Of a stretch of 64,000 bases of DNA, positions 12,697 through 19,902 are shown in pieces. The notes under the pieces are model-generated. The model was given only the letters and a program-made list of their open reading frames with translations, had not been told where the DNA came from and did no database searches. The stretch is from Limnothrix sp. FACHB-406 (GTDB lineage: Bacteria; Cyanobacteriota; Cyanobacteriia; CACIAM-69d): contig NZ_JACJSP010000023.1 in NCBI RefSeq assembly GCF_014698235.1, positions 1 through 64,000 of the forward strand, given 5' to 3'. A program made the position numbers and the translations under genes. Each line of letters opens with the position of its first letter. Positions within the stretch are counted from its first letter, which is position 1.

Positions 12697-12884
12697 CTGC
12701 TTAACGATCAGGTGACGGTAACAGCTATGTCATTTAACCCAGTGAACTAAGGCAGCCATGCTAGTAGTTGTTTCCTCAGGGCCGAAATTCCCCGTGAGGC
12801 TGGGAAAACTATACAAAACAAGCTCTAATTGCCCGAGCTAATTGCTGCCCGCCACCATAGCCCTGAATTGCTAAACAATTGCCC

Positions 12885-15800
12885 ATGGAGCCTCTGCTGA
12901 GTCCCGTTTTTGGGATGTATGACTGGTCGTTGGTTAGTGCTTCGCTGGCGATCGCGATCGTCGCATCCTACACGGCCCTCGATGTGGCGGGCCGGTTGCG
13001 CCTGGCCCAAACCGTGCGCCAACAGACGCTGTGGTTGGTCAGTGGCAGCCTGGCCATGGGGGTGGGCATTTGGTCCATGCACTTTGTGGGCATGTTGGCC
13101 TTTCAGTTGCCCATGGCCGTTCACTACGACCTCAACACCACGTTGCTGTCCTTGTTTTGGGCCCTGATCGCCTCGGGGATTGGCCTGTATGTCATGAGCC
13201 GCAGCACAGTGCGTTTTTCACTGTTGGTGGGGGGGCTGTGCATGGGGCTGGCGATCGTGGCGATGCACTATACCGGCATGGCAGCGATGCAGTTGCCTGG
13301 CGAGGTTCACTATTCCTGGCTGGGGGTTGGTGCTTCTGTGGTGATTGCCCTGGTGTCTGCCTATGGGGCGGCCTGGCTGTCGCTGCGGTTGGGGCGATCG
13401 GGCATGGAAGCGGCTGGCAGTGGCGTTCCCTTTACCTGGCAGTCCTTCAGCAGCGCCATCATTATGGGTTGCGGAATTGGGGGGATGCACTACACCGCCA
13501 TGGCCAGCACGCAGTTTTGGATGGTGAATCACTCGGTTTTTGGGTTTTCGGAACAGACCCCGGATCTCCCGATCGGGAGCGGGGGTCTCAATCAGCCCTC
13601 CAACTTGCCCAGCATCACTTCAGCGGGGTTGGCGGTGGATGTGGCCTTGGGGGCGATCGTCATTTTGGTGATTGCTCTGGCCATTTCAACGTTTGAGCGG
13701 ATGCTCGATCGACAGCGAGTGCGAGAGCAAACCCTCAGCGAAAGTGAGATGCGGTTTCGACTGCTGATCGATCGCCTGCCAACGGGGGTGTTGCTGGTGG
13801 ACGCGGGTGGGCGCATTTTGTCTTGCAATCCCATGGCGGCCAAGCTGTTGGGCACTTCTGTGGAGGCCCTTCAGGGGCAAATTTTCCATGCGGGGTTGCC
13901 CACCCTCAATCCCAATGATTTCACCCTTGGCCAAGATCTGATGCCGCTTCAGCAGATTTTGGCGTTGGGGGAGCCGGATGCCACCGTGCCCGATCGCCCG
14001 ATGGTGAACCGAGGCGTGGGCAACCTGCTGAAAGCCAATTTCACCGGCTTCAGTTCCAGCTTCAGCGCCAGTTTGGGTTGGGATGGGGGAGAAACCGGCA
14101 GCGGTGGGGCCACCAATCGATCGGCGGGGCAATCTTGGACAACCGATCGCACCACCAATCCCCAATGGCGCTTGGCCAACACCATCTTGAGCTTGAACGA
14201 AGGTGAACAGCGGCGCTGGTTGTTGGTCAACGCGGATCCAATTCTGAATGAAGATCAGCAGGTGGAGCGGGTGGTTTGTTCCCTAACGGACATTACCGAT
14301 CGCCGGCTGGCTGAGTTAGCCCTCCAAAAAACTGCCCGCCGCGAAACCACCATCGCCCGCGTGATTCAGCGAATGCGGCGCACCTTGGAGCTGCAAACCA
14401 TCCTGGACACCACCACCAGCGAGCTTCAGCAAATTATTGAGTGCGATCGTGTTTTGGTCTATCGCTTTGAGCCGAACTGGAGCGGGCGAGTGGTTTCGGA
14501 GGCCGTGGTTCCCGGTTGGACACCGGTTTATAACAACACCACCATTGAGCGAATTGCGGTCGATCGCCCGGAATGCATTATCAAAACGATCGATAGCCAA
14601 AACCTGTTGATCCAAGACACCTACCTCCAGGACACCCAAGGGGGCAGCTACCAAACCACCCGCAGTTGTCGCTGCGTCAGTGATATTTATGCCTACGGTT
14701 TCGATGATTGCTATCTCCGATTGTTAGAGGCCTTGGAAGCCAGGGCCTATATCATCGTGCCGATTTTCTGCCGGGAACAGTTGTGGGGCCTGTTGGCTTG
14801 CTACCAAAATGGCCAGCCGCGCAGTTGGACGGAGGTGGAAGTGGCCAGCGTGGTGCGGATTGCTGAGCAATTTGGCGTGGCCGTGCAACAGGCCGAACTG
14901 CTCGCCAAAACCCAACAGCAAACGACCGAGCTGTTGGCCGCCAAGGAAGAGGCCGATCGAGCCAACCGGGCCAAAAGTCACTTTTTAGCCCAAATGAGCC
15001 ACGAACTCCGCACCCCCTTGAATGCGATTTTGGGCTTTACCCAACTGATGGCGCGTGATCCGTCCCTTTCCCTGACCCACCGCCAGCAGACCAATATTGT
15101 GAACCGCAGCGGCGAGCATCTCCTGGGCCTGATCAATAGCATTTTGGATATGTCCAAAATCGAAGCGGCCCAAATGACGCTGCAACTGGAACGGTTTGAT
15201 CTGCACCGGTTGCTAGACACCTTGCAAGACCTGTTGACCGTGAAGGCGGAAAGCAAGGGGTTGGTGTTGCTTTTTGAGCGATCGGCCACCCTGCCGCAAT
15301 TTGTGATCACAGATCAGAACCGATTGCGGCAAATTTTGCTGAATCTGTTGGGTAATGCGTTGAAATTTACCGATCGGGGGCGGGTGATTTTGACGGCGCG
15401 GGAACTGTCAACCACCCCGATCGGGGAGCGATCGTCACTGATCGCCGAGACCCCGGCCACCCGCGAGGCCGACCCCGCCGCCATTGGCCTGGAGTTCAAC
15501 ATCAGCGACACGGGGCCGGGCCTATCTGCCGAAGAAATTGCCCAACTGTTTCGGCCCTTTGAGCAAACAGCCGTTGGCCAGCGATCGGGTCAGGGAACCG
15601 GGTTGGGCCTGTCCATTTCTCGGGAATTTGCCCGTTTGTTGGGCGGCGACATCTCGGTTTATAGTCAACCGCAAACGGGAGCCACCTTCACGGTCACGAT
15701 CCAAGCCCAGCGGGCAGAAATCAGCGGCGCGATCGACTCCGCTTCCCAGCAACCCATCCTGCGGCTGGCTCCGGGGCAACCGGCCTATGTGATTTTGGTG

Positions 15801-16424
15801 GCCGATGACCATGCGGACAGCCGCGCCCTGCTCACGGACTTGCTGAATCAAGTGGGCTTTCAGACCATCACTGCCATCAATGGTCAAATGGCTGTCGAAC
15901 TGTGGCAACAGCACCACCCCCAGGCCATCTTTATGGATATGAAAATGCCTGGTTTGGATGGTTACGCGGCTAGCCGCCTGATCAAATCCCAGCCCGGCGG
16001 CCACCAAACTCTGATCATTGCTTTAACGGCCAGCGCTTTTGATCAAGATCGAGCGGCAATTTTGGCGGCTGGCTGTGATGATTTGATCTGTAAGCCTTTT
16101 AACTTCACCGATCTGCTGGAGTTGCTGGGTCAAAAATTAGGAGTGCAATACCTCTACCAAGCGCCTGCGGAACCAGAACCCAACACCGCCCCGATCGATG
16201 CGGATCCCCATACCTTGCTAGCCCAACTGGCGAGCTTGCCTGATCCTTGGCAACAACAATTCCGATCGGCCGTCACCCGAGGCAGTGATAGCCAAGCCTT
16301 GCAGCTTTTGGAGGCGCTGCCGGACAGTGCCAACGCCTTGCGGCAAGTCTTCAGCCAATGGATTGACGGTTTGCGGTTCGATCGGGTGTTGGAATTACTG
16401 GATGAAGCGCAATCCGCCCCCTAG
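12885..16424 (+). CDS. MHYT-PAS-GAF hybrid histidine kinase with receiver
   Basis: A 1179-residue hybrid sensor kinase. Residues 1-230 form a seven-helix MHYT domain with its three signatures (MHFVGM, MHYTGM, MHYTAM), a proposed metal/gas sensor. A PAS domain follows (about 285-420, RLLIDRLPTGVLLVDAGG). A GAF domain at about 490-650 looks like those of cyanobacteriochromes (RVLVYRFEPNWSG, DIYAYGFDDCYLRLL, YIIVPIFC), with Cys609 where a bilin Cys is expected. HisKA has SHELRTPL (His706), HATPase has N, G1 and G2 boxes, and a C-terminal REC carries Asp1018 (FMDMKMPGLDGY). About 95 residues follow the REC. The ATG at 12885 is preferred to a TTG two codons upstream. It ends 20 bp before the GGDEF-EAL gene, so the two are probably co-transcribed. 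Confidence 0.92.
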   Translation: MEPLLSPVFGMYDWSLVSASLAIAIVASYTALDVAGRLRLAQTVRQQTLWLVSGSLAMGVGIWSMHFVGMLAFQLPMAVHYDLNTTLLSLFWALIASGIGLYVMSRSTVRFSLLVGGLCMGLAIVAMHYTGMAAMQLPGEVHYSWLGVGASVVIALVSAYGAAWLSLRLGRSGMEAAGSGVPFTWQSFSSAIIMGCGIGGMHYTAMASTQFWMVNHSVFGFSEQTPDLPIGSGGLNQPSNLPSITSAGLAVDVALGAIVILVIALAISTFERMLDRQRVREQTLSESEMRFRLLIDRLPTGVLLVDAGGRILSCNPMAAKLLGTSVEALQGQIFHAGLPTLNPNDFTLGQDLMPLQQILALGEPDATVPDRPMVNRGVGNLLKANFTGFSSSFSASLGWDGGETGSGGATNRSAGQSWTTDRTTNPQWRLANTILSLNEGEQRRWLLVNADPILNEDQQVERVVCSLTDITDRRLAELALQKTARRETTIARVIQRMRRTLELQTILDTTTSELQQIIECDRVLVYRFEPNWSGRVVSEAVVPGWTPVYNNTTIERIAVDRPECIIKTIDSQNLLIQDTYLQDTQGGSYQTTRSCRCVSDIYAYGFDDCYLRLLEALEARAYIIVPIFCREQLWGLLACYQNGQPRSWTEVEVASVVRIAEQFGVAVQQAELLAKTQQQTTELLAAKEEADRANRAKSHFLAQMSHELRTPLNAILGFTQLMARDPSLSLTHRQQTNIVNRSGEHLLGLINSILDMSKIEAAQMTLQLERFDLHRLLDTLQDLLTVKAESKGLVLLFERSATLPQFVITDQNRLRQILLNLLGNALKFTDRGRVILTARELSTTPIGERSSLIAETPATREADPAAIGLEFNISDTGPGLSAEEIAQLFRPFEQTAVGQRSGQGTGLGLSISREFARLLGGDISVYSQPQTGATFTVTIQAQRAEISGAIDSASQQPILRLAPGQPAYVILVADDHADSRALLTDLLNQVGFQTITAINGQMAVELWQQHHPQAIFMDMKMPGLDGYAASRLIKSQPGGHQTLIIALTASAFDQDRAAILAAGCDDLICKPFNFTDLLELLGQKLGVQYLYQAPAEPEPNTAPIDADPHTLLAQLASLPDPWQQQFRSAVTRGSDSQALQLLEALPDSANALRQVFSQWIDGLRFDRVLELLDEAQSAP

Positions 16425-16444: not shown

Positions 16445-18574
16445 ATGCCGCCTGAGTTGTTGCCTGCCATGTCACATCCCCCATCTGACCAGCCACCACC
16501 GGACTCGCCTGCCGCCACTCACACACCGCTTGCGGGGCACTTGCCCAGGGGCGTGAGTGAATTCCAGGAGCCTGGCCTGGATCGATCGAGCGGCTGGCCC
16601 CACGCCGACCAACCGCTCGATCGACCCGCGGCCGCTGCGGTGATCGCTCCCGATCGGGCTGCGACCTCGGCAATGGCTGACATTAATGCTGACATTAACG
16701 CTGACACCCATATCGAGCCAGCTAGTTTTCAACAGGTGGATCTCCAGCCGGCCGATATCTTGATTGTGGATGATACCCCCGAAAACCTGAAGCTCTTGGC
16801 AGCCCTCTTAGCCAGTGAGCACTATCAAATCCGCAAGGCGATCAACGGTTCCATGGCCTTGCGGGCCGTGGCCGCCGACCCGCCAGATTTGATCCTGCTC
16901 GATATCATGATGCCGGACATGGACGGCTACAGCGTTTGCCAGGCCCTGAAGGCGGATCCCAGCACGGCCGACATTCCCGTCATTTTTCTCAGTGGCCTCA
17001 GTGATGCCTTCGACAAAGTGCGGGCCTTTGAAACGGGTGGCTCAGACTACATCACCAAACCCTTCCATGGCCAGGAAGTGCTGGCCCGGGTACGTACCCA
17101 CTTGCAGGCGCGATCGGCTCAGCAGCGGATGGCCGAGCTGAACTTGGACTTGGAACGGCGTGTGCGGGAGCGCACTTGGGCCCTGGAGCAGGCGAATGCG
17201 GCCCTGCATACGGAAATTCAAGAGCGCCAACGGCTACAAGAACAACTGATGGATCTGGTGCTGCGGGATGACCTCACGGGGTTGCCCAACCGGACTGCTT
17301 TTACGCGGGAGTTGGCGGAACGGTTTCAAGCCGCTCGCCAAGCCCAAGCTGATCGGGTAGCAGTGCTGTTTGTTGACTGCGATCGCTTCAAAGTGGTGAA
17401 CGATTCCTTGGGGCACTTTGTGGGCGATCAACTGCTAATTAGCCTGGCTCAACGGCTTCAGGGCTTGCTGGAGCCGCCCCACCTCATGGCGCGATTCGGA
17501 GGCGATGAATTCACCCTGCTGCTACAGGGGCCCGATCCCCTTGCCTTGGCCCAAACCTATGCCGATCGGGTCATGGAAGCCTTGCAGCGATCGTTTAAGC
17601 TCCAGGGCCATGAAATTTTCACCAACGCCAGCATTGGCATTGCCGTAGACTCCGACAACTACAGCCATCCGGAACACTTGCTGCGGGATGCCGATGCGGC
17701 CATGTACCAAGCCAAAACCATGGGCCGGGGTCAATACCAACAGTTCAACAAGGCCATGCATCGCTACGCCCTCCAAACCCTGGAGATGGAAACCGAGCTG
17801 CGCCATGCCCTCCAAAACCAGGCGCTGCAAGTGGCCTATCAACCCATTGTTTGCGTGGCCACGGGGGTGTTGGTCGGTTGCGAAGCCCTGGTGCGCTGGC
17901 CCCATCCCGTTCATGGTTATGTGCCCCCTTCGATGTTTATTCCCGTCGCAGAAGAGACAGGATTAATTGTGGCGATCGGGGAATTTGTGTTAACCGAAGC
18001 GCTGAAACAGATCCAACAGTGGAATCGCGATCGCCCGGGCGATCGACCTTTATTTGTGAGCGTGAATCTTTCGGTTCGCCAAATTAACCAACAGGATTTT
18101 TTGGAAAAATTCAATCAAATTGTTCAGAATTTGGCCGCAGATCTTTCCTGTCTCAAGCTAGAAATTACCGAAGGGGTGTTTATGGGTCATACCCCTCAAA
18201 ACATTGCCGTTTTGAATAATTTGCGCGATCGACAAATTCAAATTTGCGTCGATGATTTTGGAACGGGCTACTCATCCCTGAGTTATTTACAGAAACTGCC
18301 CGTGGATATTCTCAAGATCGATCGCTCCTTCATCACGCCCCTGGATGAGTCCCACGAACGGGGCGAACTCGTGGCCGCCATCATCCACATTGCCCAAACC
18401 ATGCAAAAACAGATTGTGGCGGAAGGCGTTGAAACGATCGCTCAACTCCAAAAATTACAAGAATTTAAATGTGACTTCATTCAAGGCTATTGGGTGGCTA
18501 AACCCCTCACGGTTGCCGAAATGGAGAATTTTTTGAGCGACTATCCCATTAAATCCTGGTCTCGTCAGGGTTGA
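16445..18574 (+). CDS. REC-GGDEF-EAL response regulator (c-di-GMP turnover)
   Basis: A 709-residue cytoplasmic response regulator. An N-terminal Pro/Asp-rich tail of about 100 residues contains a small coding repeat (DINADINADTH). Then come REC (acceptor Asp153 in LLDIMMPDMDGY), a short coiled linker (VRERTWALEQANAALHTEIQ), GGDEF (LTGLPNR, GGDEF 352-356) and EAL (E480-A-L, NLSVRQ, LEITEGVF, DDFGTGYSSLSYL, KIDRSF, EGVET). Both catalytic sites look complete, and there is no RxxD inhibitory site before GGDEF. The position directly after the MHYT hybrid kinase suggests a phosphorelay that sets c-di-GMP level. An alternative ATG 24 bp downstream is possible. Confidence 0.94.
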   Translation: MPPELLPAMSHPPSDQPPPDSPAATHTPLAGHLPRGVSEFQEPGLDRSSGWPHADQPLDRPAAAAVIAPDRAATSAMADINADINADTHIEPASFQQVDLQPADILIVDDTPENLKLLAALLASEHYQIRKAINGSMALRAVAADPPDLILLDIMMPDMDGYSVCQALKADPSTADIPVIFLSGLSDAFDKVRAFETGGSDYITKPFHGQEVLARVRTHLQARSAQQRMAELNLDLERRVRERTWALEQANAALHTEIQERQRLQEQLMDLVLRDDLTGLPNRTAFTRELAERFQAARQAQADRVAVLFVDCDRFKVVNDSLGHFVGDQLLISLAQRLQGLLEPPHLMARFGGDEFTLLLQGPDPLALAQTYADRVMEALQRSFKLQGHEIFTNASIGIAVDSDNYSHPEHLLRDADAAMYQAKTMGRGQYQQFNKAMHRYALQTLEMETELRHALQNQALQVAYQPIVCVATGVLVGCEALVRWPHPVHGYVPPSMFIPVAEETGLIVAIGEFVLTEALKQIQQWNRDRPGDRPLFVSVNLSVRQINQQDFLEKFNQIVQNLAADLSCLKLEITEGVFMGHTPQNIAVLNNLRDRQIQICVDDFGTGYSSLSYLQKLPVDILKIDRSFITPLDESHERGELVAAIIHIAQTMQKQIVAEGVETIAQLQKLQEFKCDFIQGYWVAKPLTVAEMENFLSDYPIKSWSRQG

Positions 18575-18597
18575 TATTTATTTCCTGAGTTTTGCCG

Positions 18598-19902
18598 ATG
18601 AATGCCACGGTTGCACCCGCGATGTCTACCCAATCGGACACAAAAGAGGACATTCTGATTGTTGACGACACGATCGCCAACATTCAGTTCCTATCGTCCC
18701 TCTTAGTAGAACAGGGTTACTTGGTTCGCAAGGCCCTCAATGGCCCCATGGCTTTGCAATCAATCCATGCCGATCCGCCCAGCTTGATTCTGTTGGATAT
18801 CAACATGCCGGGCATGAATGGCTATGAAGTTTGTCGAGTCCTCAAGGAAAATGATCAGCTTAAAAAGATTCCAATTATTTTCTTGAGCGCCCTGGATAGT
18901 GCCCAGGATAAAGTGCAAGCCTTTCAAATGGGCGGCGCTGACTACATCACCAAGCCTTTTCAGTTAGAAGAAGTCATTGCCCGCATTGAAAATCAGCTTG
19001 CTCTGAAGCGGGCCCAGGAGAGTCTTCTTGCCCAAAACTTAACCCTGCAAAGGGTTTTGGAAGAATTGCGCCAAACCCATTTGCGGCTGTTGCAGCAGGA
19101 AAAAATGGCCAGCATTGGTCAGTTGGCTGCGGGAATGGCCCATGAAATTAATAATCCCCTGAGTTTTATTGCGGGTAATTTGTCGCCTGCAAGGGAGTAT
19201 TTGGCCACGCTGTTTGAGTTGCTGGATCAGTATCAAGCGGCTTGTCCTAATCCACCGGAGTCGGTGCAAAGGATTCTGAAAGAAATTGATTTAGAGTTCA
19301 TTGCCCGTGACTTTAAATCACTGGTGGATGCGATGCAAAACGGGGTCGATCGCATTCAGTCAATTATTCTGGCTTTGCGCATTTTTTCGCGATTAGGAGA
19401 AGCCGAAATTAAGTCGGTGAACTTGCATGATGGGCTGGACAGCACTTTGCTGTTGCTGAATCAACCCCTAGCCGATTTAAAAATCCGCGTGATTAAAACC
19501 TATGGAGATTTGCCGCCTGTGAAGTGCCATGCGGGCCAGGTGAATCAGGTTTTTTTGAATATTCTGAATAATGCGATCGAGGCGTTGAGTTCTGCGGTGC
19601 AAAAACAGCAACTTCAAGAAGATCCGACGATTTGGATTTGTACCGAACGCACCAGCCCCACCACCATTCAGGTGCGAATTCGGGACAACGGGGTGGGAAT
19701 TTCCCCAGAAGTTCAGCGCCAATTGTTTGACCCCTTCTTCACCACAAAACCGATCGGGCAAGGGGTGGGCTTAAATTTAGCCAGTAGCTATCAAATCATC
19801 GTGAATCATCACCACGGGCAATTAACTGTTGAGTCAGCCAAGGGAGTGGGGGCTGAATTCTGCATTGAGTTGCCGATCGCCCTGCGTGCCGAGGCCGTTT
19901 AA
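18598..19902 (+). CDS. REC-histidine kinase (response-regulator-fused sensor kinase)
   Basis: A 434-residue soluble protein. An N-terminal REC (Asp67 in LLDINMPGMNGYE) is joined by a short coiled coil (about 140-165) to a HisKA/HATPase core with GMAHEINNPLSF (His182), the N-box NILNNAIEAL, DNGVGI and a G2-like GVGLNLA. It would receive a phosphoryl signal and then act as a kinase. Third gene of a co-directional group, 23 bp after the GGDEF-EAL gene, so probably the same transcript. It is closely similar in layout to the interrupted gene at 58647. ATG 18598 was chosen; a TTG six bases upstream and an ATG at 18622 are alternatives. Confidence 0.92.
   Translation: MNATVAPAMSTQSDTKEDILIVDDTIANIQFLSSLLVEQGYLVRKALNGPMALQSIHADPPSLILLDINMPGMNGYEVCRVLKENDQLKKIPIIFLSALDSAQDKVQAFQMGGADYITKPFQLEEVIARIENQLALKRAQESLLAQNLTLQRVLEELRQTHLRLLQQEKMASIGQLAAGMAHEINNPLSFIAGNLSPAREYLATLFELLDQYQAACPNPPESVQRILKEIDLEFIARDFKSLVDAMQNGVDRIQSIILALRIFSRLGEAEIKSVNLHDGLDSTLLLLNQPLADLKIRVIKTYGDLPPVKCHAGQVNQVFLNILNNAIEALSSAVQKQQLQEDPTIWICTERTSPTTIQVRIRDNGVGISPEVQRQLFDPFFTTKPIGQGVGLNLASSYQIIVNHHHGQLTVESAKGVGAEFCIELPIALRAEAV

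Follow-up and report, generated by a model that had tools for sequence, protein, structure and literature searches.

The window, a stretch of 64,000 nucleotides from Limnothrix sp. FACHB-406 (contig NZ_JACJSP010000023.1, positions 1 to 64,000 of the forward strand), encodes a hybrid sensor kinase of 1181 residues (12879..16424, +). The ORF list and Pfam give its domain order as MHYT-PAS-GAF-HisKA-HATPase-REC. The reading frame can start at a TTG (12879) or at an ATG two codons on (12885), and residues are counted here from the TTG. Specifically, the MHYT membrane repeats (12918..13415, +; PF03707) are matched by Pfam as four stretches, with MHFV at residue 67 and MHYT at residues 129 and 203. 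They are followed by a PAS domain of residues 292-348 (13752..13922, +; PF13188/PF00989), a cyanobacteriochrome (CBCR)-type GAF domain of residues 504-669 (14388..14885, +; PF01590, 1e-18), the HisKA and HATPase_c domains (14970..15710, +) with His708 in the motif SHELRTP, and a REC domain (15792..16124, +) with Asp1020 in MDMKMP. The original prediction of an MHYT hybrid kinase with a receiver thus agrees with Pfam, which matches MHYT, HisKA, HATPase_c and REC, and its three sequence motifs are all in frame in this ORF. The GAF span it gave, 14424-14875 (residues 516-666), lies inside the domain but falls short of its full extent of about 14388-14885. The predicted cysteine of canonical chromophore type followed by tyrosine is present as Cys611-Tyr612; it had been numbered Cys609, which fits the ATG start at 12885. 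The Pfam search found no Hpt domain in the kinase that would serve a standard phosphorelay. No Pfam domain matches the tail past the REC domain (16125-16421, residues about 1083-1181), which may be a degenerate module for phosphotransfer or dimerisation.

Two genes follow on the same strand. About 20 bp past the kinase gene lies a partner gene for a REC-GGDEF-EAL protein of 709 residues (16445..18574, +), in which the GGDEF and EAL motifs are intact. About 17 bp further on, a third gene encodes a REC-HisKA-HATPase protein (REC-HK) of 436 residues (18592..19902, +).

We compared the GAF domain with all PDB chains using phmmer. The best matches are 5zoh (AnPixJg2_BV4, E = 4.6e-45), 3w2z (AnPixJg2, 5.3e-44) and 6bhn (NpR6012g4, 5.7e-44), and the top group, with E from 1e-40 to 5e-45, also includes Slr1393g3 (5dfx). 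The closest solved relatives are red/green CBCRs, and the best 60 PDB matches are without exception phytochrome/CBCR (phytochrome superfamily) proteins. With a profile from eight close relatives the match strengthens to 4e-62. Cys611 aligns with the cysteine of 3w2z, 6bhn and 5dfx. CBCRs also rank first in a Foldseek search, which adds little as the AlphaFold model is weak (pLDDT 64). The nearest named record, from a Limnothrix MAG, is 98% identical to the GAF. A tree was then built from 114 GAFs, without NpF2164g3 (VO1), UG1 and UG2, and with the insert columns and the Cys-Tyr columns left out. It places the GAF inside a 79-row red/green-related CBCR branch (SH-aLRT 99) that also takes in AnPixJg2, NpR6012g4, Slr1393g3 and the NpR1597g2 orthologue. 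Nested in this branch is a clade of 45 that contains the window GAF (support 90). Because the GAF sits in the CBCR branch at this support, the tree does not group it with non-bilin GAFs, and descent supports the suggestion of a CBCR-like, possibly bilin-binding domain. Joining all insert-Cys GAFs and the NpR1597g2 orthologue as one clade is neither rejected nor shown (p-AU 0.29), and the deep join of the window clade to NpR1597g2 stays unsettled in the tree. Of 390 cyanobacterial genomes sampled, 142 have a match to a profile of the window GAF at E <= 1e-70; this threshold may let in neighbouring GAF types, so the count is best read as an upper estimate for the clade.

AnPixJg2, NpR6012g4 and Slr1393g3 share with the window GAF the fold, Asp580 and the canonical cysteine (37-44% identity in Foldseek alignments). 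Different from the window GAF, they have no insert or insert cysteine, keep the Trp of WxDxxL and carry Cys-His. The stretch from Trp547 to Asp580 (14520..14615, +) is 32 residues long in the window GAF and 13 in AnPixJg2 or NpR6012g4, an extension of about 19 residues. It holds Cys566 (14574..14576, +), the proposed second cysteine, which the original prediction missed and which alters the photochemistry to be expected. Cys566 opens a C-x-x-K motif (C-I-I-K569) and precedes Asp580 by 14 residues. A DXCF-type cysteine is absent from the window GAF, where the motif D580-T-Y582-L583 (14616..14627, +) takes the DXCF place, and so is the Trp of WxDxxL, the sequence being I578-Q-D-T-Y-L. The insert-Cys subfamily is defined by CxxR/K in an insertion loop, the Asp and Tyr of DTYL and kinship to red/green CBCRs (PMC5240096; PMC5578081). 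The window GAF has the cysteine in a CxxR/K loop, the canonical cysteine position, DTYL and the Leu at position VII. Its residues C566, D580, Y582 and L619 have the same spacing as C569, D583, Y585 and L622 of Mbl3738g2/UG2 (PMC5240096).

The conservation of the insert is concentrated on its cysteine. Among 63 insert-bearing GAFs, 61 have Cys at the Cys566 column, and none of the remaining insert columns exceeds about 60% for any one residue. A cysteine anywhere in the insert is observed in 62/63, against about 40% expected from the background Cys rate. Cys611, Tyr612 and Asp580 are each kept in 60/63. Lys or Arg stands at C+3 in 38/58 insert-Cys GAFs, and the Cys-to-Asp spacing of 14 recurs in 37/58 and in the window GAF. 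From these sequence features, the window GAF is very probably an insert-Cys (dual-cysteine) CBCR that binds phycocyanobilin. We consider it unlikely that it is instead an ordinary red/green-type CBCR that binds bilin through a single cysteine, with Cys566 a bystander. The nearest solved structures are indeed single-Cys red/green CBCRs, and the AlphaFold model, made from an 8-sequence alignment, falls below pLDDT 50 in the insert and DTYL region, so that it gives the loop no reliable placement and cannot show Cys566 reaching the pocket. However, the near-invariance of Cys566 in an otherwise variable loop argues against a bystander, as does the match of motif and spacing to characterised insert-Cys proteins (PMC5240096). 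The red/green Trp and Arg are also mostly replaced in insert-Cys members, including the window GAF; the Trp place is Ile or Val in 43/58 insert-Cys GAFs and Trp in 28/40 insert-less relatives.

The GAF contains further cysteines, among them Cys597 and Cys599 (14667-14675) and Cys631 (14769-14771). Position 599 is Cys in 30/58 clade members and position 631 in 33/58, and these extra cysteines, each in about half of the clade, could affect the chromophore chemistry. Given this richness and the frequency of C599 and C631 in the clade, one might take cysteines 522, 566, 597, 599, 611, 631 and 641 for a thiol redox or metal switch. Such a switch is extremely improbable, as the two nearly invariant cysteines sit at the places of bilin attachment while the rest vary.

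The residue after the canonical cysteine goes with the insert. Cys-Tyr (14709..14714, +, from the alignment with PDB chains and relatives) occurs together with the insert cysteine in 58/63 insert-bearing rows; of the other five, two are degenerate, one has Thr-Tyr, one has Cys-Tyr but no insert Cys, and one has Cys-His and is positioned outside the window's branch in the tree. Cys-His is found in 40/40 insert-less DxxL relatives. By alignment, then, the Tyr marks the insert-Cys type. The original prediction had set Tyr612 apart from the His of many members; it is no warning against the bilin type, as it accompanies the insert Cys and is also present in the likely NpR1597g2 orthologue. VO1 is credited with a CH motif (PMC5240096), so the rule may fail for some characterised members. 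We dropped a biliverdin reading of Tyr612, since comparing 5zoh, a biliverdin-binding AnPixJg2 variant, with 3w2z puts the four substitutions elsewhere; only one of them, the Tyr at the DTYL position, is common to the window GAF.

Characterised insert-Cys CBCRs are NpR1597g2 (near-UV/blue), NpF2164g3 (violet/orange), and Mbr3854g4 and Mbl3738g2 (near-UV/green) (PMC5240096). We searched for them in a Nostoc genome that encodes an NpR6012g4 with 99% identity to the PDB sequence. A tandem-GAF kinase there carries, in its second GAF, DTYL, DCY and an insert (SECSAK) whose Cys falls exactly on residue 298; its first GAF has a DXCF motif. As published features of NpR1597 are C298 in g2 and a teal-DXCF g1, we take this kinase as the likely NpR1597 orthologue. 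Over 212 residues, its second GAF and the window GAF share 42% identity. NpR1597g2 being a reported near-UV/blue photoreceptor, Cys-Tyr is compatible with bilin function. No rightly placed Cys at 546, as in NpF2164g3/VO1, was found among the Nostoc-genome proteins checked. The characterised proteins and the window GAF have in common the CxxK/R insert Cys, Asp-Thr-Tyr-Leu, the canonical Cys and red/green kinship, and the NpR1597g2 orthologue additionally shares Cys-Tyr. Unlike them, the window GAF belongs to a clade of its own and has Val538 and Leu619 near ring D, and it stands as a single GAF in an MHYT-bearing PAS-GAF hybrid kinase, whereas the NpR1597 orthologue has a tandem-GAF array.

Two relatives from the window's clade have degenerate GAFs, namely the kinase at L070:3059-6061 and the genome's own paralogue L007/L127 (L127:1089-4754). 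Both lack the insert Cys, DTYL and the canonical Cys together, and L070 still has the REC-GGDEF-EAL gene downstream. These losses indicate that the GAF scaffold can exist without bilin, and they lend something to the view that the window GAF merely keeps the fold and serves another ligand or dimerisation, the more so as L070 kept its c-di-GMP gene. We regard this as very unlikely for the window GAF, in which every chromophore-site residue is intact and whose best 60 PDB matches are all bilin-type; joint loss is what a shared purpose of these residues would predict, and residues conserved or lost jointly fit selection for bilin binding. The genome also encodes a kinase of 1176 residues (L126:1277-4807) with a tandem array of four CBCR-like GAFs; the fourth, too, is of the insert-Cys, Cys-Tyr type.

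The genome has one bilin reductase, a PcyA equivalog (333 bits, cut-off 206), and two heme oxygenases; hence phycocyanobilin should be the available bilin. As an insert-Cys CBCR, the window GAF would hold phycocyanobilin at Cys611 through a stable thioether. In the dark, Cys566 on the mobile insert loop would add to the bilin C10; such an adduct breaks up the conjugation and would give a near-UV/violet dark state. Light would isomerise C15=C16, the second bond would break, and a green-to-orange photoproduct is predicted. Colour tuning in insert-Cys CBCRs depends on the residue at the β2 Phe position and a helix-4 residue, which are Val538 and Leu619 here. In UG2 these places hold Tyr and Leu, and both states of its Y537V variant are shifted to the red (PMC5240096). 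As this variant has the window's pair, we lean, with low confidence, towards a dark state in the violet and a photoproduct on the orange side; this is the weakest step of the explanation.

The switch would travel along the helices to HisKA (His708), which may then phosphorylate a receiver, either Asp1020 or that of the adjacent REC-GGDEF-EAL protein or both, and the c-di-GMP level would be altered, whatever the sign of the effect. We inspected 52 loci, all of the related kinase (about 50 distinct, minus two duplicates). The gene right after the kinase encodes REC-GGDEF-EAL in 21/52 loci (about 20/50 distinct) and REC-HK in 13/52 (about 12/50 distinct). The linkage to a c-di-GMP gene, missed by the original prediction, is therefore recurrent and of interest. 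As REC-HK often directly follows the CBCR kinase elsewhere, the gene at 18592-19902 may represent another conserved partner. Operons that combine a hybrid kinase with a GGDEF regulator have a precedent in CdgK-CdgS of Anabaena PCC 7120 (PMC9927289), which likewise pairs a membrane PAS/GAF hybrid kinase with a c-di-GMP REC-GGDEF regulator; in the window the pairing is putative. CdgK has CHASE, five PAS, two REC and Hpt, its signal being unknown (PMC9927289), whereas the window kinase has MHYT, one PAS, a CBCR GAF, one REC and no detected Hpt, and its partner carries an EAL domain, unlike CdgS.

MHYT is fused to this type of GAF in 13/69 ORFs (duplicates counted, some N-termini cut); other genomes thus have the fusion too, yet it is a minority arrangement. 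Among the papers searched, none describes an MHYT-CBCR. The suggestion that MHYT senses gas or metal goes beyond the evidence and was not adopted; a review gives the activity of MHYT as unknown (PMC8846402).

Only a handful of insert-Cys CBCRs have been characterised so far. The clade described here is large and apparently uncharacterised, with a simple hybrid-kinase layout and a recurring c-di-GMP partner gene. We tentatively suggest, as a possibility that falls somewhat short of an even chance, that this widespread clade is a conserved near-UV/violet input to c-di-GMP via the co-encoded REC-GGDEF-EAL protein, that in the window's lineage MHYT adds a membrane or periplasmic cue to the kinase to make a two-input sensor with light, and that the Tyr after the canonical cysteine marks the photochemistry. 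Through the recurring partner gene, one would be able to test the output of a near-UV/violet CBCR directly. The rule of an insert Cys with Cys-Tyr helps to read CBCR GAFs that look atypical for want of the His, and the MHYT fusion could help reveal what MHYT senses.
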